Shown here piece by piece: positions 757 through 21,994 of a stretch of DNA of 22,183 nt; the first letter of the stretch is position 1, and each line of letters opens with the position of its first letter. A program made the position numbers and the translations under genes. Location of the stretch: the IMG/VR virus record IMGVR_UViG_3300008448_000742, positions 1 to 22,183 of that record; one strand, 5' to 3'. This DNA is from a virus. A model generated the notes under the pieces. It did no database searches. It was not told where the DNA came from and saw only the letters and a program-made list of their open reading frames with translations.

Positions 757-1361
757 ATTGTATTATAAAAATTATTTTGTTTTTCTTGTCGTTCAATTGT
801 TTTTGGATGGATTAAAGCTAATTCATCTACTGCTGGTAAAACTGTAAATTGTCTATGTCCTTCAATTACCTCATGAACTGCGTTCCTCCATTTAATTTCA
901 GGAACATTTCTATAAATTCGAGTTTGATAATCAGGCCAATTTACTCTATTATTTTCATATCTCCATCCCCATTTTTGAATATGCTCTGGGGTAATGCCTT
1001 CTACAGTATTAATTCTAGGAACATAATACAAATCAACCTCAGGATTCGCTTTAAGAATTTGAGGAAGCATGTGTAGCATTTCAGGAGCTATTAATTCATC
1101 AGCATCAATCTGAAATATAAATTCTCCTAAACATTGTTCTTTAAGCTTGTTTTTATATGAAGCAAAATCCTTATTTAAAGGATGGAACCAATGTTTAATT
1201 CCTCTATCAAGAATAACACTTAATACTTCTTTAGTATAGTTATCTTGATCAATTTGTACTACTACTTCATACGATGGAGATAGTGCTCGTTCTTGGAGAT
1301 AGTCAAGTAAATTTTCTAACTCCTGGTGTTCATTACATACTGTTATTGCTATACTGATCAT
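753..1361 (-). CDS. Family 2 glycosyltransferase (GT-A fold), short form
   Basis: This 202-aa protein begins MISIAITVCNE, the usual first strand of a GT2 Rossmann-like domain. It carries FASYKNKLKEQCLGEF followed by FQIDADE (residues 83-89). The DAD at 86-88 is the metal and nucleotide-sugar binding DxD motif. Family members transfer a sugar from an NDP-sugar to an acceptor; the sugar and acceptor here cannot be told. The closest general resemblance is to short WaaE/SunS-type GT2 enzymes. The chosen ATG places the start right at strand 1. It makes the gene overlap the 3' end of the upstream reductase gene by 29 nt, which is long for this window, but no later Met would keep the fold. It ends in an ATGA overlap with the next gene. 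Confidence 0.85.
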   Translation of the reverse strand: MISIAITVCNEHQELENLLDYLQERALSPSYEVVVQIDQDNYTKEVLSVILDRGIKHWFHPLNKDFASYKNKLKEQCLGEFIFQIDADELIAPEMLHMLPQILKANPEVDLYYVPRINTVEGITPEHIQKWGWRYENNRVNWPDYQTRIYRNVPEIKWRNAVHEVIEGHRQFTVLPAVDELALIHPKTIERQEKQNNFYNTI

Positions 1362-2043
1362 TTAAAAACTTATTTAATTTTGAAATATCCATACTTACAT
1401 CTAAAGGTACTTTAATATCTTCATTGTATATAGGAGAAACATTTGGGTTAGTTTTTTTAGCTAGACGAAGCATACTTTTAAATTCAGTTCCAACATTATA
1501 TAAACCTTTAGCATCTTTTTCTATTAATTTAATATATAAGTTAACAATAACATCTACATAATCAAAATTACCTAAATGATTTATCCACCCTCCTTTATAA
1601 GGAAATGGAGTTGGTTTATGAGTTCCTCTAAGAATTAAATAATTTTTACCTTTAAGTTCAATATAACCATCAGCTAATAATTTTGTATAAGCATAATATG
1701 TTGATTGGTGAACTGGAATTCCTTCTTCATTTGGTTTATCTAAAGAATTAGCATAAACATAATCAGTTGATACGTGAACTAATTTTTTATTATGAGTGTT
1801 ACAGTAGTCCATTAAATCAACAACTGCTTTATAGTTAGTATCCCAATGTATTTTTTTATTATTATCGTAAGTATTTGTATAAGCTATACAATTAATAATA
1901 GTATCATAAGGTAATAATAAGTGCGCCCAAGTGGTAATTTTTGTTAAATCAACACCATCAACAGAGCGGGATAAAATATCCCACCCTGTTTGTTTGGCTA
2001 ATTCTTCACCTAATAATCCATTACCTAGAATTACAGGTTTCAT
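1333..2043 (-). CDS. SDR-family NDP-sugar reductase/epimerase (RmlD-like)
   Basis: This 236-aa protein has the N-terminal NAD(P)-binding loop GNGLLG (residues 7-12). It also has VSTDYVY (91-97), with the catalytic Ser/Thr, and the YxxxK pair Y117/K121. Together these define an extended short-chain dehydrogenase of the dTDP-4-dehydrorhamnose reductase type. Such enzymes reduce or epimerise 4-keto-6-deoxy NDP-sugars in the cytoplasm. At 236 residues it is shorter than typical RmlD (about 290), with a reduced C-terminal substrate domain. It overlaps the upstream DegT-fold dehydratase by 4 nt (ATGA). I infer that it reduces the keto-sugar made by that enzyme, as ColC does after ColD. The specific substrate is not visible, so I give no symbol. 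Confidence 0.8.
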   Translation of the reverse strand: MKPVILGNGLLGEELAKQTGWDILSRSVDGVDLTKITTWAHLLLPYDTIINCIAYTNTYDNNKKIHWDTNYKAVVDLMDYCNTHNKKLVHVSTDYVYANSLDKPNEEGIPVHQSTYYAYTKLLADGYIELKGKNYLILRGTHKPTPFPYKGGWINHLGNFDYVDVIVNLYIKLIEKDAKGLYNVGTEFKSMLRLAKKTNPNVSPIYNEDIKVPLDVSMDISKLNKFLNDQYSNNSM

Positions 2044-3182
2044 TTGTTAAAAAATTCTTTGATTTTATCACAAACATAATCTACATCCTCAATAGTCATA
2101 CCATGATGTGCTCCTAACAAGAAACCATTTTTCATAATAGTATCTGCGTTTTCAAAATCTTGTAAGAATTCTCTATAAGCAGGATGACGAGTTACATTAC
2201 CAGCAAATGTTACTCGGGTTTGGATGTTATTATCTTCTAAGAAATTAAGCAAATCATAACGATAGTTAGTCTGTAAAGGAATTGCTAACCAATTAGGTTG
2301 GATTGAATCATCAGGTAAAATTAAGTCACCTACACCTTGAAGATTTTCAATATACCGTTCAACATTATCTCTTCGAATTTGAGAGAATTTTTTAAAACGT
2401 TCCAATTGAACTAATCCAAAAGCAGCATTCATCTCACTAGCTTTCATATGGTATCCTAAAACACTATATAAAAACTTATGGTCATAAGGAATACCATCTA
2501 CACTATGGTTAAAACGATCATCCATAATTTCTGAGTCATCGCCTAAACGACCCCAGTCTCTGTATTGTAAACATTTAGTGACATGTTTTTTATCATTAAA
2601 CATTACCATACCACCTACACCACCGGCTGTAATAACATGTGAGGCATAAAAACTAGTTGTAGCAACATCAGTCTCTAAAGTTTCAGTAATTGTATCAGCT
2701 GAGTCTTCAATTAAGATAATATCTGTTCTACCTAATAATTTAATTTCTTGTTTTAAACGTTTCCAATCAGGTTTATTACCAATTAGATTAGGTAACATAA
2801 TTGCTTTAACATCAGGAGTAATAGCGGCTACTACTTGACTAATACCAGCTACATAATCGGTTAAACCAACATCTACAAATTTTGGTTGATAACCTAATTG
2901 TAAAATAGGAGCTAATGTAGTTGAGAATGTACAAGCCGGAGTAATAATTTTACATCCTTTAGGTAAGTCTAAAGCAGCTATAGCTAATAAACAAGCTGAT
3001 GATCCTGAGTTAACAAATACACCAAATCGTTTTCCGAAACGTTTAGCTATTGCTTCTTCAAATTCAACTGATTTAGGACCTTGACCTCCTAACCATCCTG
3101 AACGTAATGATTCTTCTACAGCTTTAATTTCTTCTTCCCCATAAGATTCAAACTTATAAGGAGCGTACCATATTTTTTTCAT
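2040..3182 (-). CDS. DegT/DnrJ-fold sugar 3-dehydratase (E1/RfbH/ColD-like)
   Basis: This 380-aa protein has the fold-type I layout of sugar aminotransferases. It has VNSGSSA (57-63) for the cofactor phosphate, IEDSAD (158-163) with D160 for the pyridine nitrogen, and SFYASHVITAGG (177-188). The last motif aligns with the PLP-lysine motif, but His182 occupies the lysine position. In this superfamily that swap marks the PMP-dependent 3-dehydratases (E1/AscC, RfbH, ColD), which remove the C3 hydroxyl of a 4-keto-6-deoxy sugar. Further matches are YRDWGR (207-212) and TRVTFAGNVTRHPAY (322-336), close to motifs I recall from E1 enzymes. No Cys follows YRDWGR, so the E1-type iron-sulphur cluster looks absent. 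An SDR reductase gene overlaps its 3' end. The sugar and nucleotide carrier are unknown. Confidence 0.85.
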   Translation of the reverse strand: MKKIWYAPYKFESYGEEEIKAVEESLRSGWLGGQGPKSVEFEEAIAKRFGKRFGVFVNSGSSACLLAIAALDLPKGCKIITPACTFSTTLAPILQLGYQPKFVDVGLTDYVAGISQVVAAITPDVKAIMLPNLIGNKPDWKRLKQEIKLLGRTDIILIEDSADTITETLETDVATTSFYASHVITAGGVGGMVMFNDKKHVTKCLQYRDWGRLGDDSEIMDDRFNHSVDGIPYDHKFLYSVLGYHMKASEMNAAFGLVQLERFKKFSQIRRDNVERYIENLQGVGDLILPDDSIQPNWLAIPLQTNYRYDLLNFLEDNNIQTRVTFAGNVTRHPAYREFLQDFENADTIMKNGFLLGAHHGMTIEDVDYVCDKIKEFFNK

Positions 3183-3200: not shown

Positions 3201-3656
3201 TTATTCAGGTAAAACACCAACATAAGAAAGAGCATCTATAAAATCACGTTCGTGAAAATTTTGTAATGTACTCATATCCATTCTCCATTCATAGTATTCA
3301 TTTTTCTTTCCTGGTATTGGGTATTTTGTTTTTTCATCCTCAGTTACAGGAACAGCTTTTACAGCTGCCCAACCCCAATTTTCTTTAGAAGGACCATTAG
3401 CAAAAATCATTCCTTGTTGAGGTAAATTTATTGATGAGGGCATCCATATTTTACCATCTTGATCTTTAACCATTAGGTCTTTATAAAGTTCAGGTAAAAT
3501 AGATACTTGTTCTTCATAAAAAGTTTCACCTTCTTTTAGTATTGAATTAGTTTGGAATCCACAACCATAACAAAAATAAGTTTTAATGTCTTGGTTTACT
3601 TCATCTACATAACAGGCGTCTGATCCGCATCGATCGCAATTAATTAAATTATCCAT
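3201..3656 (-). CDS. Zinc-ribbon protein of unknown function
   Basis: This 151-aa protein begins with a clear zinc ribbon: CDRC (C7 and C10) and CYGC (C29 and C32), about 18 residues apart. A mostly polar region follows, containing MIFANGPSKENWGWAAVKAV and a C-terminal segment rich in aromatic and acidic residues. I do not recognise the C-terminal part. The start overlaps the end of the upstream GT4 gene by 8 nt. An 18-nt gap separates it from the dehydratase gene downstream. Its place inside the sugar locus may mean it helps there, but zinc ribbons are also common in phage transcription and nucleic-acid binding proteins, so no function is assigned. Confidence 0.7.
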   Translation of the reverse strand: MDNLINCDRCGSDACYVDEVNQDIKTYFCYGCGFQTNSILKEGETFYEEQVSILPELYKDLMVKDQDGKIWMPSSINLPQQGMIFANGPSKENWGWAAVKAVPVTEDEKTKYPIPGKKNEYYEWRMDMSTLQNFHERDFIDALSYVGVLPE

Positions 3657-4941
3657 TTTGTGTTGTTAAATTTGGTAGTCCTATTTTTTTAAGTTGAGGT
3701 AATTTTAACTGTACTTGTTGAGCGAACTCAGGAACATTTTTAGTTAAAATAACTTCTAATTTTTCTTTCATTTTATCCCAGCTAAATTCATTTTTAGATT
3801 TAAATGCTTGACGTTTAGCTTTATCAGTATATTTTTTATAATTTTCAAATACATCCTTTAAATAAAAGCCTACTTGTCCTGGATCAGGTGAAAACCATTT
3901 TGAGTCTTGAATCAAAAATTGGTTTTTAGTGCTTTGATGAACAGGAGTTAATTGACCATTAATCAAATTAGTGAATTCAGAATTTAAAAAATCCATATGG
4001 CCAGACCAAGCTGTTGTAATCAAAGGTTTTTTAGTTAAAGTAAATTCCAATAATGGACGACCAAAACCTTCACCTTTAGTTAAACTAATCATTGCTTTTA
4101 CTTTAGAATGATTATAAATTTCATTCATTTCCTCATCACTAAATTCACCATGCAATAGATAAACATTAGGTAAATTAGTTGAGTTAACTGTTTTCATAAT
4201 TTTTTTAATTTTATGAAGAATAGCTTCTCGATCCATATATGAGGCTCCAACTTGAGATGTTTTTAAAATCAAAGCTGGTTTTTTAGTTTTGTTTTTAAAT
4301 GTTTCAAAAAACGCTTTAACTAACAAACCAACATTTTTTCTATCCTCACCTAAATCACCTTCCATCCAATGACCTACAAATAAATAAGCAAAATCTTCTT
4401 TAACATTAAAGTCAATAGAACAAGGTGTATTAATTACTTTATAAATGTCTGTGTCTGCTCCTTCAAATAATACTTCAATTGGTTTTTTTAATTCAACCAT
4501 TTCTTGAAGTTGATTGGTGTTTTTATCTCTTTTTTCAAACTTTGACTCTACAAATACTTTTTTAGAGTGTTCAGATGAAGTTAGAGTTAAATCCATTCTA
4601 TTAATTCCTTCAATCCATTCAGGAGGGCAAATTGTACTTTCAATACCAGCTGTTACTCCTATATTATACTTTCCAACAGCTTGAAACTCATTAGGAACAG
4701 TAATCTGCATCCACACATCAGGTTGTTTAGGAAGTCGATTGTCTGGGAGGGAATGTTCTAATAGAAAACTCCATTCTTTATTGTCCTCACAAAAACCAAA
4801 GGGTGTGATACCCCATTGTTGAGACAATAACTTAACATCGTATTTATCTGATTTAATAATGGCTTTAACTAAATCTCTTGATCGAGCACCGTAGCCACTG
4901 TAGGTGTCAAAAGGGCAACTTATAACAAATAATGGTTTCAT
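3649..4941 (-). CDS. Family 4 glycosyltransferase (GT-B fold)
   Basis: This 430-aa protein has both GT-B halves. The N-terminal acceptor domain begins LFVISCPFDTYSGYGARSRD, with the usual Gly-rich loop at 16-19. The donor domain begins near residue 185 (YLFVGHWMEG) and has RKN at 201-203. The conserved E-x7-E (EGFGRPLLE, 291-299) contacts the NDP-sugar. It should be a retaining glycosyltransferase. The ATG shares one base with the TAA of the upstream GT4 gene (TAATG), so the two are coupled and may act in sequence on one glycan. Donor and acceptor are unknown. Confidence 0.88.
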   Translation of the reverse strand: MKPLFVISCPFDTYSGYGARSRDLVKAIIKSDKYDVKLLSQQWGITPFGFCEDNKEWSFLLEHSLPDNRLPKQPDVWMQITVPNEFQAVGKYNIGVTAGIESTICPPEWIEGINRMDLTLTSSEHSKKVFVESKFEKRDKNTNQLQEMVELKKPIEVLFEGADTDIYKVINTPCSIDFNVKEDFAYLFVGHWMEGDLGEDRKNVGLLVKAFFETFKNKTKKPALILKTSQVGASYMDREAILHKIKKIMKTVNSTNLPNVYLLHGEFSDEEMNEIYNHSKVKAMISLTKGEGFGRPLLEFTLTKKPLITTAWSGHMDFLNSEFTNLINGQLTPVHQSTKNQFLIQDSKWFSPDPGQVGFYLKDVFENYKKYTDKAKRQAFKSKNEFSWDKMKEKLEVILTKNVPEFAQQVQLKLPQLKKIGLPNLTTQNG

Positions 4942-6377
4942 TAATATAACAATTTATGATTTAAAACTTTATCTTTAATTTCTGTTGTGTTTACAAATTC
5001 AAATTTTTCTCTTGGCTTCCAAGTTTCAAACAATTCATTAAAAGCATCAATAATTCTATTTCCTTGAGCCTCACCTGTGAATCCTGCTTCTTCTCCAATA
5101 GCCCATTCTCTACCAGCCATACCTTTTTCTTTACGTTCTTCAGGAGTTAAATTATATACTGCTGAAATTTGTTTAGCTGCATCTTCTGGACGGCAAATAT
5201 CATCCCAAATGTAAGGTGTTGGAGGTGAACCTACTAATGTTCTTGTACTTGGAAATACTGGAAACGCCCAGTTGCCATGTTTTTTATAAGTACCTAAATG
5301 GTTTGAGGGAACATTTTCATCTGGTGTAAACCAGTTTCCATTTTCATCCTCAAATCTCATTTGGTCTTGCATTCCTCCAGTTACATTTGCAATAATTGGA
5401 TTACCTACTAAAATAGCTTCAGTTAAACTCAATCCCCATCCTTCATTAGATGTTAATAGAATTTGAGCATCTGTACTATTATATAACATATTCATTTGGA
5501 TAGACTCAAATCTAGCATCAGTAAATATGATATTATATTTTTCATCATTAGCAATTAACTCAATAACAGCATCTAGATCAGTTCCATGTTCATTTACTCG
5601 TTCAGTATGAAGAACTAAACAACATTTTTTAGCTTGTTCAATAGGTAAAGTATCAATAAAATACTTATAGGCTAAAATAGTATCTGGAATTTGTTTGCGA
5701 CGAATGTTTCTAGAGTTAAATAGAAGAGCAAAATCATATTCTTTACCTTTAAATAAATGTTTTTTAAATTCCTTTAAATTAGAATCATTTTTATCTAAAG
5801 GTTTAAAAATATTATGATTCAAACCATGAGGAACATATTTAATAATTCTATTCTTAGCTTTATCTCCTAAAACCAAGGTATTAATATTAACTGTTTGTTT
5901 TGAAATACCCATTAACAAATCACAGGATTCATAATAAGGTAAATTATACAATGGTGCTGGATAATCATCCCAAATGTTAAGGTAAGTAATAGGAATTTGT
6001 TTCCTAATTTCATTTTCAATTTGGAACAACCAAGTAAAGTAACGTGGATCTGTAATCAACATAATGGCATCTGGTTTTTCCATTTTAATTAGTTGTCTAA
6101 TTATATGAGGATTACCATAACCATCTGTTGGATACATAATAACTGATGAATCAGTTAAACCCATAGTTTCATTAGTTGATTGACTTAGGTCTAATCTTTT
6201 TCCTTGTTCAGGATGCTGAATAGCTCCTCCTATGTTTACCCAATTGAAATGATGAGCAGTATGTAAAACTACTTCTCTACCTACACCTGCTATACCTGAA
6301 TGAACTCTGATGTCATCACAGATAAGCATAATCTTTTTCCTCTGGTCAGGAGGCAAATACTTAAAACTTTTATTCAT
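4941..6377 (-). CDS. Family 4 glycosyltransferase (GT-B fold), second copy
   Basis: This 478-aa protein opens with IMLICDDIRVHSGIAGVGRE, the GT-B N-terminal strand and Gly-rich loop. The donor domain starts near residue 214 with FALLFNSRNIRRKQ, which carries the Arg/Lys used for phosphate binding. The E-x7-E signature is NEGWGLSLTE (E312 and E320). It then has NVTGGMQDQM, typical of the donor pocket. The sequence is clearly diverged from the 430-aa enzyme, so the two probably add different sugars. The TAATG overlap with that gene and a 7-nt gap to the 63-aa gene place it in one transcript. The product is unknown. Confidence 0.88.
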   Translation of the reverse strand: MNKSFKYLPPDQRKKIMLICDDIRVHSGIAGVGREVVLHTAHHFNWVNIGGAIQHPEQGKRLDLSQSTNETMGLTDSSVIMYPTDGYGNPHIIRQLIKMEKPDAIMLITDPRYFTWLFQIENEIRKQIPITYLNIWDDYPAPLYNLPYYESCDLLMGISKQTVNINTLVLGDKAKNRIIKYVPHGLNHNIFKPLDKNDSNLKEFKKHLFKGKEYDFALLFNSRNIRRKQIPDTILAYKYFIDTLPIEQAKKCCLVLHTERVNEHGTDLDAVIELIANDEKYNIIFTDARFESIQMNMLYNSTDAQILLTSNEGWGLSLTEAILVGNPIIANVTGGMQDQMRFEDENGNWFTPDENVPSNHLGTYKKHGNWAFPVFPSTRTLVGSPPTPYIWDDICRPEDAAKQISAVYNLTPEERKEKGMAGREWAIGEEAGFTGEAQGNRIIDAFNELFETWKPREKFEFVNTTEIKDKVLNHKLLY

Positions 6378-9164: not shown

Positions 9165-9580
9165 TGTATTTCTTTTAATAACTTTTTAATTTCTTTTTCA
9201 TTAACACCTGCTTTTTCAAGAATATGTTCTACACCTTCTTTTTTAAGTATATAAACATAATCTTCTGCCTCCCCAAGTGATATTGTATAATGGTTAGCAA
9301 TGTATTGTAATATAGATTCGTTTGTTTTTTTACGTGAACTTTTCACGTACTTAAGGAAAACATTCTTTTTAGGTAACATATGGCAGTAGTATTTGTAGGT
9401 TTTTTCTTTTTCAGGATATGGTATCCTTTGGCCATAATTAGCGACCTCTGTATACCCTTCATACATACTAACAAAGCGATGAACCATGTAAGAATTAAAC
9501 GATTCTTGCTGGCCTTCAGTGAATGATGACCAAGGTGTTTTATTAGTTGTGATTTCTTTTAGCCAATCAAATATTGTCAT
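9161..9580 (-). CDS. Candidate clamp-loader small subunit (gp62-like)
   Basis: This 139-aa protein begins MTIFDWLKEITTNKTPW. It contains HMLPKKNVFLKYVKSSRK (87-104), then a helical C-terminus (LQYIANHYTISLGEAEDYVYIL). The pattern of a basic aromatic block followed by a helix-turn region resembles, as I recall it, the small clamp-loader subunit gp62 of marine T4-like phages. In T4, gp62 is encoded just downstream of gp44. Here two small genes separate it from the gp44 homologue on the same transcript. gp62 joins four gp44 subunits to load the clamp. The call rests on position and weak similarity. It overlaps the upstream 81-aa gene by 14 nt. Confidence 0.6.
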   Translation of the reverse strand: MTIFDWLKEITTNKTPWSSFTEGQQESFNSYMVHRFVSMYEGYTEVANYGQRIPYPEKEKTYKYYCHMLPKKNVFLKYVKSSRKKTNESILQYIANHYTISLGEAEDYVYILKKEGVEHILEKAGVNEKEIKKLLKEIQ

Positions 9581-9812
9581 CTTCGAATTCTGCTCTCAAT
9601 TCTTTAGGAAGCAATTCTACTAATACTTTACCAGTGGCTACATCATAAAAACATGGAATTGGAATAACTCCATCTTCTTGAGTGCCAGTTACAAAACGAG
9701 ATACTTTACGCAAAATAACTCCTTCTGAGAATACTTGGTTGCCTTCAGGTGAGGCAATTGGTCTAGTGTTTTTGATGTCAATATTGACATTCATTGGTTT
9801 TTGATTATTCAT
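9567..9812 (-). CDS. Conserved phage protein of unknown function
   Basis: This 81-aa protein has the core EGVILRKVSRFVTGTQEDGV followed by IPIPCFYDVATGKV. From memory, this core resembles small proteins in the replication region of marine T4-like phages that carry CxxC pairs on both sides of it. The equivalent positions here have no Cys pairs (PEGNQVF and YDVATGK), so a zinc site would be lost. The gene overlaps the membrane-protein gene by 8 nt and the gp62 candidate by 14 nt. No function can be assigned, and the family memory should be checked by search. Confidence 0.6.
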   Translation of the reverse strand: MNNQKPMNVNIDIKNTRPIASPEGNQVFSEGVILRKVSRFVTGTQEDGVIPIPCFYDVATGKVLVELLPKELRAEFEDDNI

Positions 9813-10008
9813 TTTCTATTTCTTTTTTATGTTTACGCCATTCTAAATAAAATCCAGTTGCTACTAAAGCATTCATTCCAAATGAAGCTATAATTTCTTT
9901 AATGTCATCATACACATTCATAGTTAGATGGACATGACCTACCATCCAAAAAGGAATAGATAGATTACTAGCAATCCAAATCACTAGAAAGTATATGAAT
10001 TTTTTCAT
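9805..10008 (-). CDS. Small two-span membrane protein
   Basis: This 67-aa protein starts MKKF and then has a hydrophobic stretch (about 4-24). A second, weaker hydrophobic segment lies at about 41-56 (IASFGMNALVATGFYL), before a charged C-terminus (EWRKHKKEIENE). It probably sits in the host inner membrane with both ends on the same side. It lies between the clamp-loader gene (ATGA overlap) and the 81-aa gene (8-nt overlap), so it is expressed early with the replisome. I do not recognise a family. A role in host takeover or superinfection control is possible but unsupported. Confidence 0.6.
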   Translation of the reverse strand: MKKFIYFLVIWIASNLSIPFWMVGHVHLTMNVYDDIKEIIASFGMNALVATGFYLEWRKHKKEIENE

Positions 10009-10940
10009 ATAACTCGTTTACTTGAAATTAATAATAAAATTCTAGATATCAAAGCCATAATGTTAATTTCTTTATCAATTCTAAAATTAGCATGGTATTG
10101 ATATTCTTCAATATAAATTATCACTTCACCTACACTTAATGGAGCATATTTTTCTACATTGTCATATAAGTATCTAAATAAATCCTCATAATCACTAACA
10201 CCAGAATCAGCTACAATTTGTCTGATGTTGTTAAATGATTTAGAATTTGGTTTAATTAGTTCTGCTAATACTTTTGTTTTATAGTTACTAGATACTAATA
10301 TATTTTTATCAATTAGAATTTCATCACCTGCTACACCCATTTGTAGTGTATTAAGCATTTTACGAATGTCAGGATAATATTGATTAACTACTAATTTTAA
10401 ATCATCAGCTCCCATACCAACATTTTCATTTTTGAGAATGTCTATAATATGATAAGCAATATCTTGTTTAGATGGAGGTACAATTTTTAGTACCTGGCAA
10501 CGTGATTGGAGAGGATCAATGATTCGTTCAATATAATTACAAGTTAAAATAAAACGAGTAGTACGGGCAAATGTTTCAATTATGTTTCTTAATGATGCTT
10601 GAGCTTGTATAGTAAGAAAATCAGCTTCATCTAAAATAACTACTTTAAGAGGTTTAAATGAGGCAACAGATGAAAAACCTTGTACTTTGTCTCTGATAGT
10701 ATCAATACCACGTTCATCAGAAGCGTTAATGTAAAGAAAACTACAATCAAGATTATTAACAATTAGTTTAGCTAAAGTTGTTTTACCAGTACCTGCTGGA
10801 CCATAGAAAATAAAATTTTGAATATCATTTTGTCCTAGATATTTTGAAATAGTATTTTTAATCTGTTCATTACCTACATAAGAATCTAGGTTTGGGGAAC
10901 GATATTTTTCAACCCATAAAGTATGTTCTTTAGAACTCAT
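10005..10940 (-). CDS. 44: Sliding-clamp loader ATPase, large subunit (gp44-like)
   Basis: This 311-aa AAA+ protein matches T4 gp44 and replication factor C small subunits. It begins with LWVEKYRSPNLDSYVG. Walker A is GPAGTGKTTLAK (47-58) and Walker B is VVILDEAD (100-107). Sensor 1 lies around LTCNY (132-136), and SRC (146-148) gives the arginine finger. The C-terminal part forms the collar domain. With gp62 it opens and loads the clamp at primer ends using ATP. All catalytic residues appear intact, and the length is close to T4 gp44 (319). It overlaps the upstream 86-aa gene by 11 nt and the downstream membrane-protein gene by 4 nt. Confidence 0.95.
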   Translation of the reverse strand: MSSKEHTLWVEKYRSPNLDSYVGNEQIKNTISKYLGQNDIQNFIFYGPAGTGKTTLAKLIVNNLDCSFLYINASDERGIDTIRDKVQGFSSVASFKPLKVVILDEADFLTIQAQASLRNIIETFARTTRFILTCNYIERIIDPLQSRCQVLKIVPPSKQDIAYHIIDILKNENVGMGADDLKLVVNQYYPDIRKMLNTLQMGVAGDEILIDKNILVSSNYKTKVLAELIKPNSKSFNNIRQIVADSGVSDYEDLFRYLYDNVEKYAPLSVGEVIIYIEEYQYHANFRIDKEINIMALISRILLLISSKRVI

Positions 10941-11399: not shown

Positions 11400-13317
<1,918 letters not shown>

Positions 13318-13320
13318 ATT

Positions 13321-13614
13321 TTAATAATTAGTGTTTTCAATTAATTGACTAACAATGTTTTGATAATTATCAACATACTCTTTTAATGAATTGTATGATT
13401 GATTGTTTGATTTTGCTTTAGCAATACTCTTAATAGCACCGCCTACTGAGCTGTGATGACTAATAATTTTATTAAATTCTTTAGTTGATTCAGTGTAACG
13501 TCTGTCTGGCGTTACTTTTAAATTTACTGTAACACAATAGTTATCCATTGTGATAAAATAAGGCTCCATTGCTGGATCAATAATAGTGTTTGTGTAATCT
13601 TTTTCAGTACTCAT
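13321..13614 (-). CDS. Conserved phage protein of unknown function
   Basis: This 97-aa protein begins with the segment DPAMEPYFITMDNYCVTVNL. I recall this style of N-terminus from small phage proteins, with no known role. The C-terminal half looks helical (SSVGGAIKSIAKAKS and YNSLKEYVDNYQNIVSQLI). There is no membrane or metal motif. It sits directly upstream of groES (3-nt gap) and downstream of the 64-aa gene (23-nt gap). Because it precedes the chaperonin pair it may share their promoter. Confidence 0.6.
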   Translation of the reverse strand: MSTEKDYTNTIIDPAMEPYFITMDNYCVTVNLKVTPDRRYTESTKEFNKIISHHSSVGGAIKSIAKAKSNNQSYNSLKEYVDNYQNIVSQLIENTNY

Positions 13615-13637
13615 AATATTAATATAACATTTTTTTC

Positions 13638-18591: not shown

Positions 18592-19566
18592 TTAAAGTCC
18601 ATATCTTGATTTTTGAGCGTTATAGTTTTGTAAGACTTCCGCCGCTGAAAGTGCTTTGTTATAAGCTAAAACTTGATATATTTTACCAACATACGCACCA
18701 CCATATACTCCTCCTATTTTAAAGGCAGCATCACTTTGTAAAGCAGCATGACCCGGGGTTGAAGCTACTAAAACATCATTTCTATATATAGATTGAGTTC
18801 CTGATCCTGAAATATCATATATAAAAGTAGCACAATAAGTTACATTGTTTGAGACACCACCACCACTAGTATCATTACCATAAAAACCCATATGTAAAGA
18901 TCCACCTCTTAAATTATAATGTAAATAAGTATTAGCTCCTCCTCCATTTGTAGAAAATAAAGGAGAATCATTACCTGTGTTACTAGAATTAAACCAAATA
19001 GAAACAGAAAAACTAGCATTTGCAAATCCTAATTGAGCTGCTGTTTTATATAATTCAATAGAATCATCTACACCATCAAACACAATTGATCCACTATTAG
19101 CAGAGTTAAATGTTGGTCCATTTGTTAATGTTCCATTATTAGTATTTCCACTTAAATCATACCAAGTAGTATTAATTGTAGGATATGAACCTACAAACCC
19201 AGCATCTGTGTTTAATACTAACCCATCAGTGACTATACTTTCATATTGGAAATTAATAGCCATTAAATTAGTTTGAGTTCCAATCCAAGACAAAACAGCA
19301 GCAACAGAACCAGTATTATCCCCAGTTGCTCCTTTCCAACGAGCAAATCTAATTAATTCAGCATCATTTTGGGGACTATAAACTTCAGGGTCACCAGAGG
19401 CAGCGGTTTCAATAATTTGATACAAACCAGAAGTAGGAGGATTAGGACCATTGTACCAACCAGTAGTTGAGGTTGGTCCTAAACTACCACTAACACCTAA
19501 AGCGACATTACCTTTTTGAAGGCTGCCTGTTAGGTTTCCTGCTTTATACTTTATTGCGTTTGGCAT
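18592..19566 (-). CDS. LamG-domain virion/tail-fibre protein (324 aa)
   Basis: This protein has an N-terminal region (about 1-110, starting MPNAIKYKAG) shared in style with the 715-aa protein. A linker follows, and then one LamG/concanavalin-A-like lectin module from about 135 to 324. The module has YDLSGNTNNGTLTNG, SIVFDGVDDSIEL, a SVSIWF strand, IYRNDVLVA and the closing KIYQVLAYNKALSAAEV. The C-terminal end NAQKSRYGL resembles the 715-aa end FDAFKSQYGF. LamG modules bind glycans, so the protein probably sits on the tail or capsid surface and contacts the host. It has low Cys content and is rich in Gly, Ser, Asn and Thr. No enzymatic motif is visible. Confidence 0.8.
   Translation of the reverse strand: MPNAIKYKAGNLTGSLQKGNVALGVSGSLGPTSTTGWYNGPNPPTSGLYQIIETAASGDPEVYSPQNDAELIRFARWKGATGDNTGSVAAVLSWIGTQTNLMAINFQYESIVTDGLVLNTDAGFVGSYPTINTTWYDLSGNTNNGTLTNGPTFNSANSGSIVFDGVDDSIELYKTAAQLGFANASFSVSIWFNSSNTGNDSPLFSTNGGGANTYLHYNLRGGSLHMGFYGNDTSGGGVSNNVTYCATFIYDISGSGTQSIYRNDVLVASTPGHAALQSDAAFKIGGVYGGAYVGKIYQVLAYNKALSAAEVLQNYNAQKSRYGL
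19062..19080 (-). repeat. 19-nt repeat encoding the FDGVDD LamG motif, copy 1
   Basis: The plus strand reads AATCATCTACACCATCAAA. Copy 2 at 20323-20341 is identical and copy 3 at 20956-20974 differs by one base. Each encodes the FDGVDD(S/Y/F) turn at the start of a LamG module, so protein-level constraint explains part of the match. Confidence 0.7.
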
Positions 19567-19571
19567 TTAAA

Positions 19572-19835
19572 TTAAGGCATTTGTGGGTTTGGATCAGTCC
19601 ATTCAGGTGTAGCCATAATAGCTAAAATTTCATCATAGGTGTAAGGACCTTCCTTTGTAGTCATTGTAGCTACAAATTCAGGAGCTTCACCATCCCATTT
19701 AATTAATGTTTTTTGTTTATCTACTGATTTGCGAAGTGTAGAAGAGGATGTTTCTAATACTTCATTAAAATCAACTTTGTCAATTTCACTAACATTAAAA
19801 ATTAAAAAATTACGTTCGTCATATATTTGTACCAT
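19572..19835 (-). CDS. Conserved fibre-locus protein (87 aa)
   Basis: This 87-aa protein begins IYDERNFLIFNVSEIDKVDF and has a middle LRKSVDKQKTLIKWDGEAP. It ends in PYTYDEILAIMATPEWTDP. I recall similar short proteins beside tail-fibre genes in marine phages, with no known function. It is acidic, without membrane or signal features. It lies between the two LamG genes (5- and 11-nt gaps), so it may be a fibre assembly factor or a minor virion component. That role is inferred from position only. Confidence 0.65.
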   Translation of the reverse strand: MVQIYDERNFLIFNVSEIDKVDFNEVLETSSSTLRKSVDKQKTLIKWDGEAPEFVATMTTKEGPYTYDEILAIMATPEWTDPNPQMP

Positions 19836-19846
19836 ATTTTTATTTA

Positions 19847-21994
19847 TTAAAATCCATATTGTGATTTAAAAGCATCAAAGTTTTGCTTTAATTCAGCATT
19901 TGTTAATTGTCTATTATATAATGCTACTCTAAACATTTTTCCTTTATATACTCTACCATTAAAAATATGTGAAAGGGTACTTAAAGTCATATTACCTATT
20001 GCTCCTACATAAAAGTTTTGTGTAAGTGTTCTTCCATTAGGAACTTGAAAGTATGGATAATTACTACCAATAACAATTGATGATAAACTAGAAGTTCCAT
20101 TTATCATAAACTGATTAGGATATCCAAATTGGTAATCATTATTATTTCCTCCATTCATACCATGAATTGAACCAGAGCCAAAAAATGTACCACCAAAAAA
20201 TCGTAAACTGTTATCACCTGTTGCTGATTGGCCAACTAATGCTTGTAATCCCTCAGTCGCACCAACATCTGCAATACCCCAAAAACAAACAGTACCCACA
20301 TATGTTGAAGTAAATTGAACATAATCATCTACACCATCAAATACTAAAGCACCTCCACTTGTTGTATCAAATGAAACTCCATTAGTCAATGTTCCGTTAT
20401 TGTTATATCCACTCAAATCATAGATTGTTGTTCCAGAGCCTGGGTAGCAGTTTGGATTTGAAAAATCATAGTAAACTGTTAAACCTTGGCTAACCATAGA
20501 TGATGTTGGGGAGTAAGTGGAAAGAGTAGCTGTATATAAATTTTCTATTTCAGTAGCAGATAATGCTTTATTATATATTTGAGCATTTCCTATTTGACCA
20601 TTTAAGAATCTACCACCAGTATATGAACCTAAAACATTTTGGTTTGATGAACCAAAACTCATATTAATAGAAGGCATTGTAGCGGTACTTACTTGATTTC
20701 CATTTATATAAAAAGTAGCAGCAGTTCCATTTTGAGTTACAGCGATAAAATTCCAGGATCCTGTTGTAAATGAATAACCAGCACCATTACTACCTTGATA
20801 TACATCCGACCACCAACCTAACCCTCCAGCATTTAATTCAAATAAAGTACCTCGTATATTAAACACAGCATTGTTATTACCAAAAGCAAAGGATTTAACC
20901 CAAGCAGTATATGTTAAAGCTGTTGTAATTGGAGGGGTATCTGATAATCTTATAAAATCATCAACACCATCAAACGAATAACAACCACCATTAGAACCAT
21001 CCCAAGCCCATGCTTGGTAACCAGTCATGTTATTTAAGCTCCAACTTCCAGTAGACAATCCACCATTAGTAGGTAAATCAAAGTTTGTAAAGTTTTTAAA
21101 TGTAGTAGGAGTATTACCTTCCTCCATTTGTATTTCAGTAACTAATATTCCTACTCCAGACTGTAAATTTCCATTATTTGCTCTACCAAAAAATAAATAA
21201 TACTTGTCAACAGTATGAGTAAAAGTAAAATATGAACGTTGCCAAGTTGTTGTTGGATTTACAAAAGTACCATTTGGAGATTGAACATTAAACGTATTAG
21301 GATCACCACTACCTCCTTGAGTTTGAACAAACATATTGGTTGTAGTAGAAGATAAACTTTTTAACCAGAATGAAAAAGTATATGTTTTTCCTGTTTCTAA
21401 ACCCATTTTTGTTCCTAATCCAGCCCAATCATAAACTTCAGAACCAGAAAATTTAAGAGCATAATTAGAAGGAGAACCCACATATGGTTTATCATTTGAT
21501 ATATCAACAACTGTTGTTGTTGATTCTTGTCTCATATATAAAGGATATCTAGCACCCCCAAATGAACTAGAAACAGAATTGTTTCCGTTTGGCCATCTGT
21601 TAACTGATTTAGGGTTAAAAGAAGCTACTAAACCATTAACTATAGTTGAAGGGTATACTTCATCACTTTTTAGTATAGAATATTGTCCTGATGCTACTGA
21701 ATAACTTACAGCTGTATTAACATCTGTAAATCGGGTTTGACCTACTCTATCAGGTAAACCATTTATTGTTGTTAATAAACCAGAATCTGTAAAATCACCT
21801 GTACCCCACATAGCAGGAGGATTAGAATTGTTTACAATAACATATTGGTAAGAAGAATCTAACCCATTATAAAAAGTAGCATTAGCTGCTCCTGCTCCCC
21901 AGTTTGAAGGACCAACACCAACTAAAATATTTGATTGTTTAGCTGTGTTAGGTGGTTGGATTGTACCTGTTTTATATGCTATTGGTCTTGGCAT
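19847..21994 (-). CDS. Large LamG/CBM-bearing virion or tail-fibre protein (715 aa)
   Basis: The N-terminal domain (about 1-125, starting MPRPIAYKTG) parallels that of the 324-aa protein and may anchor both to the virion. A carbohydrate-binding-like region (about 150-303) follows, with TYTFSFWLKS, TTWQRSYFTF and TEIQMEEGNTPTTF, the usual CBM4/9-type closing pattern. Two LamG modules come next. One (about 338-490) begins CYSFDGVDDFIRL and ends GQIGNAQIYNKALSATEIE. The second (about 501-715) begins with VYYDFSNPNC, YDLSGYNNNGTLTNG and VFDGVDDYVQF and ends FDAFKSQYGF. No protease or lysin motif is seen. It probably recognises host surface glycans. The gene begins just after the phosphoribosyltransferase-like gene. 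Confidence 0.8.
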   Translation of the reverse strand: MPRPIAYKTGTIQPPNTAKQSNILVGVGPSNWGAGAANATFYNGLDSSYQYVIVNNSNPPAMWGTGDFTDSGLLTTINGLPDRVGQTRFTDVNTAVSYSVASGQYSILKSDEVYPSTIVNGLVASFNPKSVNRWPNGNNSVSSSFGGARYPLYMRQESTTTVVDISNDKPYVGSPSNYALKFSGSEVYDWAGLGTKMGLETGKTYTFSFWLKSLSSTTTNMFVQTQGGSGDPNTFNVQSPNGTFVNPTTTWQRSYFTFTHTVDKYYLFFGRANNGNLQSGVGILVTEIQMEEGNTPTTFKNFTNFDLPTNGGLSTGSWSLNNMTGYQAWAWDGSNGGCYSFDGVDDFIRLSDTPPITTALTYTAWVKSFAFGNNNAVFNIRGTLFELNAGGLGWWSDVYQGSNGAGYSFTTGSWNFIAVTQNGTAATFYINGNQVSTATMPSINMSFGSSNQNVLGSYTGGRFLNGQIGNAQIYNKALSATEIENLYTATLSTYSPTSSMVSQGLTVYYDFSNPNCYPGSGTTIYDLSGYNNNGTLTNGVSFDTTSGGALVFDGVDDYVQFTSTYVGTVCFWGIADVGATEGLQALVGQSATGDNSLRFFGGTFFGSGSIHGMNGGNNNDYQFGYPNQFMINGTSSLSSIVIGSNYPYFQVPNGRTLTQNFYVGAIGNMTLSTLSHIFNGRVYKGKMFRVALYNRQLTNAELKQNFDAFKSQYGF
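20323..20341 (-). repeat. 19-nt LamG repeat, copy 2
   Basis: Identical to copy 1 at 19062-19080, inside the second LamG module of the 715-aa gene (VFDGVDDY). Confidence 0.7.
20956..20974 (-). repeat. 19-nt LamG repeat, copy 3
   Basis: One base different from copies 1 and 2 (AATCATCAACACCATCAAA), inside the first LamG module of the 715-aa gene (SFDGVDDF). Confidence 0.65.

Follow-up and report, generated by a model that had tools for sequence, protein, structure and literature searches.

The DegT-fold and SDR genes lie among glycosyltransferase genes

The DNA analysed here (the window) is an entire virus record of 22,183 bases. On its minus strand, positions 2040-3182 encode a DegT-fold protein of 380 residues (PF01041, 231 bits), which its PDB matches, its AlphaFold2 (AF2) model searched with Foldseek and a phylogenetic tree mark as a predicted 3-dehydratase. 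As the original prediction stated, the next gene on the same strand (1333-2043) overlaps it by 4 nt; it encodes an RmlD-like SDR of 236 residues, a predicted NAD(P)H 4-ketoreductase by its match to RmlD_sub_bind (56.5 bits), its AF2 model and Foldseek matches, and its invariant residues.

The remaining genes of this region are also on the minus strand. A GT2-family glycosyltransferase gene (753-1361; PF00535, 39 bits; homologues in 72 loci) overlaps the SDR gene by 29 nt, and its product is a candidate user of the sugar. Beyond it lies a gene cut by the window end (1-756), the product of which has no family match and could, by its position only, be a glycosyltransferase; the full-length version of this protein has 288 residues (L004, 12427-13293). 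On the other side of the DegT gene, positions 3201-3656 encode a zinc-ribbon-like protein of 151 residues with CxxC pairs, which found no match in Pfam, PHROG or NCBIfam. It is a conserved neighbour, with homologues in 73 loci, 58 of which have at least two CxxC pairs. Two GT4-like glycosyltransferase genes follow (3649-4941 and 4941-6377; PF00534, 29 and 28 bits, respectively), each with homologues in 73 loci, so that the dehydratase and SDR genes are flanked by GT2 and GT4-like glycosyltransferases.

The replication genes of this environmental phage are T4-like, and its nearest isolate is Microcystis phage Mel-JY01, with which its PolB shares 34% identity. The phage also encodes GroEL and GroES homologues (11400-13317) and two proteins with LamG/carbohydrate-binding domains (18592-21994) that may belong to the tail or to fibres. 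Scanning the window for Rfam families and for tRNAs gave no matches.

A histidine replaces the PLP lysine in the DegT-fold protein

In aminotransferases of the DegT fold, a lysine binds PLP. The original prediction placed a histidine, His182, at this position, and we found that its codon (2639-2637, minus strand), within TSFYASHVITAGGVGG, indeed aligns to H220 of E1 and H188 of ColD. An alignment to these two enzymes had been proposed along with the prediction, and in each case the mutated position is His182: it aligns with the lysine of the deposited E1 H220K mutant (3bb8) and the position that differs between wild-type ColD and its H188 variants. Because the mutated residues of these entries fall there, the alignment is fixed at His182. 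Both of the motifs that had been reported, YRDWGR (residues 207-212) and TRVTFAGN (residues 322-329), are found in the protein.

The best PDB matches are to E1 (3bcx, 1.4e-53) and then to ColD (about 1e-37). When the AF2 model (pLDDT 87) was searched with Foldseek, E1 was the top match, followed by many aminotransferases sharing this fold, with ColD entries foremost among them. The protein misses the curated NCBIfam cut-off for RfbH (249 bits, against 423). It shares S61, L65, T88, G328, N329 and G357 with RfbH and ColD, to the exclusion of the Lys-type sequences compared. The product of 2040-3182 is very probably an enzyme that removes the 3-hydroxyl of a nucleotide sugar.

One could instead propose that the protein is a sugar aminotransferase that needs no PLP lysine and that its product is a 4-amino-4,6-dideoxy sugar. 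Members of the DegT fold family are mostly aminotransferases, many of which are in the Foldseek list, and the best PHROGs family for the protein is named “aminotransferase”. Moreover, SpnQ, which is also a His-type enzyme, transaminates when its reductase is absent (PMC8987622); under the same conditions, however, E1 and ColD gave no transamination (PMC8987622). The lysine is, furthermore, missing throughout the family described below, the phylogenetic tree excludes the Lys-type sequences, and the YerE-like and transketolase-like partners of sister genes would need a ketone. We regard the aminotransferase reading as unlikely, and favor a 3-dehydratase.

His182 is invariant in a family that is distinct from E1 and from ColD

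A scan of viral sequences gave 211 relatives, 80 of which, at 77-100% identity, were kept. Together with the window and three cellular loci, these make up a family of 84, and His182 is invariant in the alignment of all 84 members. An 85th aligned locus (L085) was rejected as a His182 member; it encodes an ordinary Lys enzyme that had been shifted by one residue in the first alignment. A pattern scan of cellular genomes recovered only four loci, one of them of a distant Lys type. The dN/dS ratios are about 0.06-0.21 for the DegT gene and about 0.14-0.29 for the SDR gene, and both genes therefore look maintained.

We constructed a phylogenetic tree of 40 sequences, five of which were of the Lys type. 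Every His-type sequence was placed apart from these five (support 99/98). The window family formed a single clade with a gene from a genome of the phylum Bacteroidota (L090; support 100/99). This clade was sister to the Fe-S RfbH/E1 group with moderate support (94/85); several branches are long, which leaves the sister position less certain than the clade. ColD clustered with enzymes of phages S-CAM7 and ACG-2014f, apart from the window family. The window enzyme is thus a member of an Fe-S-free branch beside E1/RfbH, and is neither E1 proper nor a member of the ColD clade. A lone Fe-S-free His-type gene, which has no adjoining sugar genes, was also seen in a Bacteroidota-phylum genome (L144 in G052, 9553-10764).

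The iron-sulfur motif is missing, and no E3-like partner was found

Both E1 and SpnQ require electrons, delivered via an Fe-S cluster, while ColD works by hydrolysis of its intermediate and by recharging of PMP with glutamate (PMC8987622). In RfbH and E1, the cysteines that hold the [2Fe-2S] cluster lie just after the WGR motif. The corresponding segment of the window enzyme (residues 213-221, LGDDSEIMD; 2520-2546, minus strand) has no cysteine, and neither do those of the window-family members compared or of L090; among RfbH-type cellular proteins, all 43 of 43 have at least three. The conserved cysteines of the family, C64, C84 and C371, sit outside the site of the motif. We also looked for an E3-like ferredoxin partner (PF00111/Fer2) and found none in ten related records, some of which are fragmentary; the PF00111 search was positive in 12 of 14 control genomes. 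With neither [2Fe-2S] cysteines nor an E3 found, the enzyme should, like ColD, have no need of electron transfer, and we infer a ColD-like route of hydrolysis and glutamate recharge for it.

Alternatively, the enzyme could follow an E1-type mechanism, with electrons that come from a host ferredoxin or reductase rather than via a cluster of its own. E1 and RfbH are its closest relatives by sequence and in the tree, and it retains the E1-type positions W210, R212, R223, F224, Y233, D234, K236 and F326. The family-wide absence of the cysteine motif and the lack of a Fer2 protein in the related records nevertheless make this mechanism very unlikely in our estimation, and the ColD-like route is the one that we carry forward.

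The SDR is a predicted ketoreductase that is linked to the dehydratase

The SDR contains the GxGxxG motif, the catalytic serine and the YxxxK motif, and G7, G9, G12, S92, Y117 and K121 are invariant in 31 aligned sequences. Its AF2 model has a pLDDT of 93, and its top Foldseek matches are RmlD. It scores below the curated rmlD equivalog cut-off (49 bits, against 224), and no match to the model of Fcl (GDP-fucose synthase) was reported for it. ColC is an Fcl-type enzyme. In line with the proposal that the SDR could act as a ketoreductase after the manner of ColC, it is RmlD-like and directly follows the 3-dehydratase gene; the likeness to ColC does not extend to an Fcl-type match.

The weak SDR scores, along with the fact that the gene after the DegT gene varies among relatives, might suggest that the dehydratase and SDR genes share a glycan locus without a common function, and that the SDR serves another pathway. 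We consider this highly improbable, since 38 of the 49 SDR loci show an overlap of 4 or 1 nt between the two genes and the catalytic residues of the SDR are invariant. An unrelated huge phage of 642 kb also has an SDR 48% identical to that of the window: its gene, which includes a fused glycosyltransferase-like portion, comes after an Fe-S E1-type gene. A role of the SDR downstream of the dehydratase is the reading that we prefer.

Sister phages carry other enzymes in place of the SDR

Across 85 loci, the DegT gene is followed by an SDR gene in 49, by a gene for a ThDP enzyme in 16, by a split transketolase in eight and by a C-methyltransferase in one; in the remaining 11, it is followed by another gene or by the contig end. 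DegT genes on either side of a swap between an SDR and another partner reach 94% identity, as between the window and L005. About 13 partner changes are needed on the DegT tree, which has many weak branches, and its well-supported branches force only four to five.

We asked what the ThDP enzymes resemble. A single JanthE type for all 16 of these genes was rejected, as their motifs show three subtypes: nine with a CDG motif, four with GDG that occur with a PanB-like gene, and three with GDG that occur with an HpcH/HpaI gene. JanthE is the top PDB match for all three. The main subtype, that of the nine CDG loci, scores 565 bits to JanthE against 261 to the best acetolactate synthase. The two GDG subtypes likewise match JanthE best (321 against 300 bits and 365 against 271 bits), with a narrow margin for the PanB-linked subtype. 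JanthE is a YerE-like enzyme in which the uncommon CDG motif is present. The substrate of YerE is CDP-3,6-dideoxy-4-keto-D-glucose, to which it attaches a unit of two carbons, creating a branch at the C4 ketone (PMC12188165, PMC12247030). A split transketolase has been proposed as the enzyme that branches a keto-sugar in miharamycin biosynthesis (PMC12247030). That YerE-like or transketolase-like enzymes take the place of the SDR therefore fits a 4-keto-3-deoxy product of the dehydratase, and not a 4-amino sugar.

The genes that adjoin the GDG-type ThDP genes are PanB-like or HpcH/HpaI aldolase-like (L058, 12930-13865; L080, 12329-13267; L013, 11816-12613; L010, 8217-9014), and the PanB-like gene of L058 exceeds the curated cut-off. 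Such genes could make hydroxylated 2-oxo-acid donors, as used by ErwE.

We also approached this association from the opposite direction. We recovered JanthE-like genes from 31 viral contigs, and every one of these genes has the CDG motif. A DegT relative was present in 12 of the 14 records of this kind that were searched, and in all 12 the best DegT match was of the His type: three are Fe-S-free (L178-L180) and nine have the Fe-S motif (L181-L189).

Residue, fold, phylogeny and genomic partners together support predicted activities for the window pair of a nucleotide-sugar 3-dehydratase that depends on PMP and, after it, a 4-ketoreductase. With the partner swaps, they also favor the predicted pathway to a 3,6-dideoxy sugar rather than to an amino sugar, which was the central suggestion of the original prediction. 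What the analysis itself shows are the residues, the predicted fold, the clade, the gene pairing and the partner swaps.

Substrate supply and the identity of the nucleotide

No 4,6-dehydratase or nucleotidyltransferase gene was found in the window or in its closest records (L002-L004, fragments of 17-35 kb), and the host may therefore supply the substrate. A nucleotidyltransferase (PF00483) scored above the cut-off in only one of 31 related records. Nine viral loci encode an RmlB-like 4,6-dehydratase with an STDEVYG motif. The RmlB-like gene directly follows the DegT gene in four of the relatives (L076, L077, L078 and L080) and in a locus from an archaeal MAG (L083, 8078-10966), where the order is RmlD-like SDR, 3-dehydratase (73% identical) and RmlB-like gene. 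These RmlB-like proteins miss the curated RmlB cut-off. In L054, an RmlC-like gene adjoins the RmlB-like gene. Strong Gmd-like matches were found in L075, L079 and the 268-kb L061 record; being strong in only a few relatives, Gmd was rejected as a general source of the substrate. The NDP-4-keto-6-deoxyhexose probably comes from the host or from a phage gene outside the fragment.

A further gene, just upstream of the DegT gene and almost only in ThDP-linked loci, belongs to a cluster (cluster 21; L009, 9192-10004, and 25 other loci) that weakly matches alpha-1,3-fucosyltransferases (GT10-like). As to the nucleotide, the RmlB- and RmlC-like genes point to dTDP, and the Gmd-like genes and the GT10-like transferase of the ThDP-linked loci point to GDP.

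Two observations concern related genes. In phages S-CAM7 (L135) and ACG-2014f (L136), genes for Gmd, an Fcl-like protein and a ColD-like His-type DegT protein are consecutive and are followed by a GT11 gene, an arrangement that resembles a cyanophage colitose pathway. In L075, a partial DegT-family protein of 199 residues (13024-13623) adjoins a hexapeptide acyltransferase gene.

A proposed pathway to dideoxy and branched sugars

The best explanation overall, which we hold with good though not full confidence, is an Fe-S-free PMP-dependent 3-dehydratase that acts on an NDP-4-keto-6-deoxyhexose through a ColD-like cycle, with the SDR as the finishing enzyme. The reaction, cofactor cycle, substrate and product that we infer would run as follows. 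The C4 ketone of the NDP-4-keto-6-deoxyhexose would form a Schiff base with PMP, His182 would deprotonate PMP at C4', and the C3 hydroxyl would depart. With neither a cluster nor an E3 to deliver electrons, the resulting aminohexoseen would probably be hydrolyzed to the 4-keto-3,6-dideoxyhexose and ammonia, and glutamate would recharge PLP to PMP, as in ColD. The overlapping RmlD-like SDR would then reduce the C4 ketone, and neighboring glycosyltransferases may transfer the NDP-3,6-dideoxyhexose onto a glycan. A YerE/JanthE-like enzyme or a split transketolase of sister phages would instead add a branch to this 4-keto intermediate at C4.

It appears that phages that combine the DegT protein with swappable partners produce rare 3-deoxy sugars, and not amino sugars, for use in glycans. 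A broader reading, to which we give somewhat better than even chances, is that in a large clade of T4-like phages the Fe-S-free 3-dehydratase is a fixed hub that provides an NDP-4-keto-3,6-dideoxy intermediate, while the finishing enzyme is exchanged: a reductase, a YerE/JanthE-like enzyme with or without a PanB- or HpcH/HpaI-type donor maker, or a split transketolase. If the hub reading is true, viruses would build diverse dideoxy and branched sugars with which to change the glycans of the host or virion, and some auxiliary genes of viruses that are labelled “acetolactate synthase” would encode sugar-branching enzymes. There would also be an Fe-S-free class of E1-like 3-dehydratases, common in environmental phages, and these phages would be capable of making branched as well as rare 3-deoxy sugars. 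A single dehydratase whose partners are exchanged in nature would offer a ready biochemical test. A note of caution follows for surveys of auxiliary metabolism, which the labels “aminotransferase” and “acetolactate synthase” on viral genes may mislead.

Comparison with known systems

Annotations of rfbH, ascC and ddhC 3-dehydratases in viral contigs have been catalogued (PMC10653327, PMC11295528), and an RfbH-like gene is annotated in cyanophage S-H68. In the accessible parts of these surveys, there is no separate Fe-S-free family and no partner swapping (PMC10653327, PMC11295528). More widely, viral catalogues in the literature within our scope, which took in few subscription papers, include genes like rfbH and ilvB. 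Viral RfbH-like genes are thus already known; in this literature we found no description of the Fe-S-free family, of its partner swapping or of branched-sugar synthesis by phages.

Compared with E1/AscC/DdhC/RfbH, the CDP-4-keto-6-deoxyglucose 3-dehydratases, the window enzyme is alike in its histidine for lysine, its DegT fold and its motifs of the YRDWGR and TRxxFAGNxTR type, and these enzymes include its closest solved relative and form its sister clade. It differs in that it lacks the [2Fe-2S] cysteines, is about 60 residues shorter, has no E3 found with it, and scores far under the curated RfbH cut-off. With ColD, the GDP-4-keto-6-deoxymannose 3-dehydratase, it shares the histidine, the absence of an Fe-S motif, a similar length and, as expected by analogy, a PMP cycle recharged by glutamate; unlike ColD, it belongs to a different clade, has E1-type motifs, and has no Gmd or Fcl gene adjoining it in the window. 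The SDR resembles RmlD- and ColC-type 4-ketoreductases in directly following a 3-dehydratase gene and in its RmlD-like predicted fold, and it could reduce a 4-ketone; it differs from them in its length of 236 residues, a score under the curated RmlD cut-off and the lack of an Fcl/ColC-type match. Finally, the ThDP enzymes of sister phages, though not of the window, resemble YerE, ErwE and JanthE in that they adjoin a 3-dehydratase and in the CDG motif of their main subtype. In contrast to those enzymes, they are encoded by phages, are tied to an Fe-S-free 3-dehydratase, and sometimes occur with PanB- or HpcH/HpaI-type genes as possible makers of the donor.
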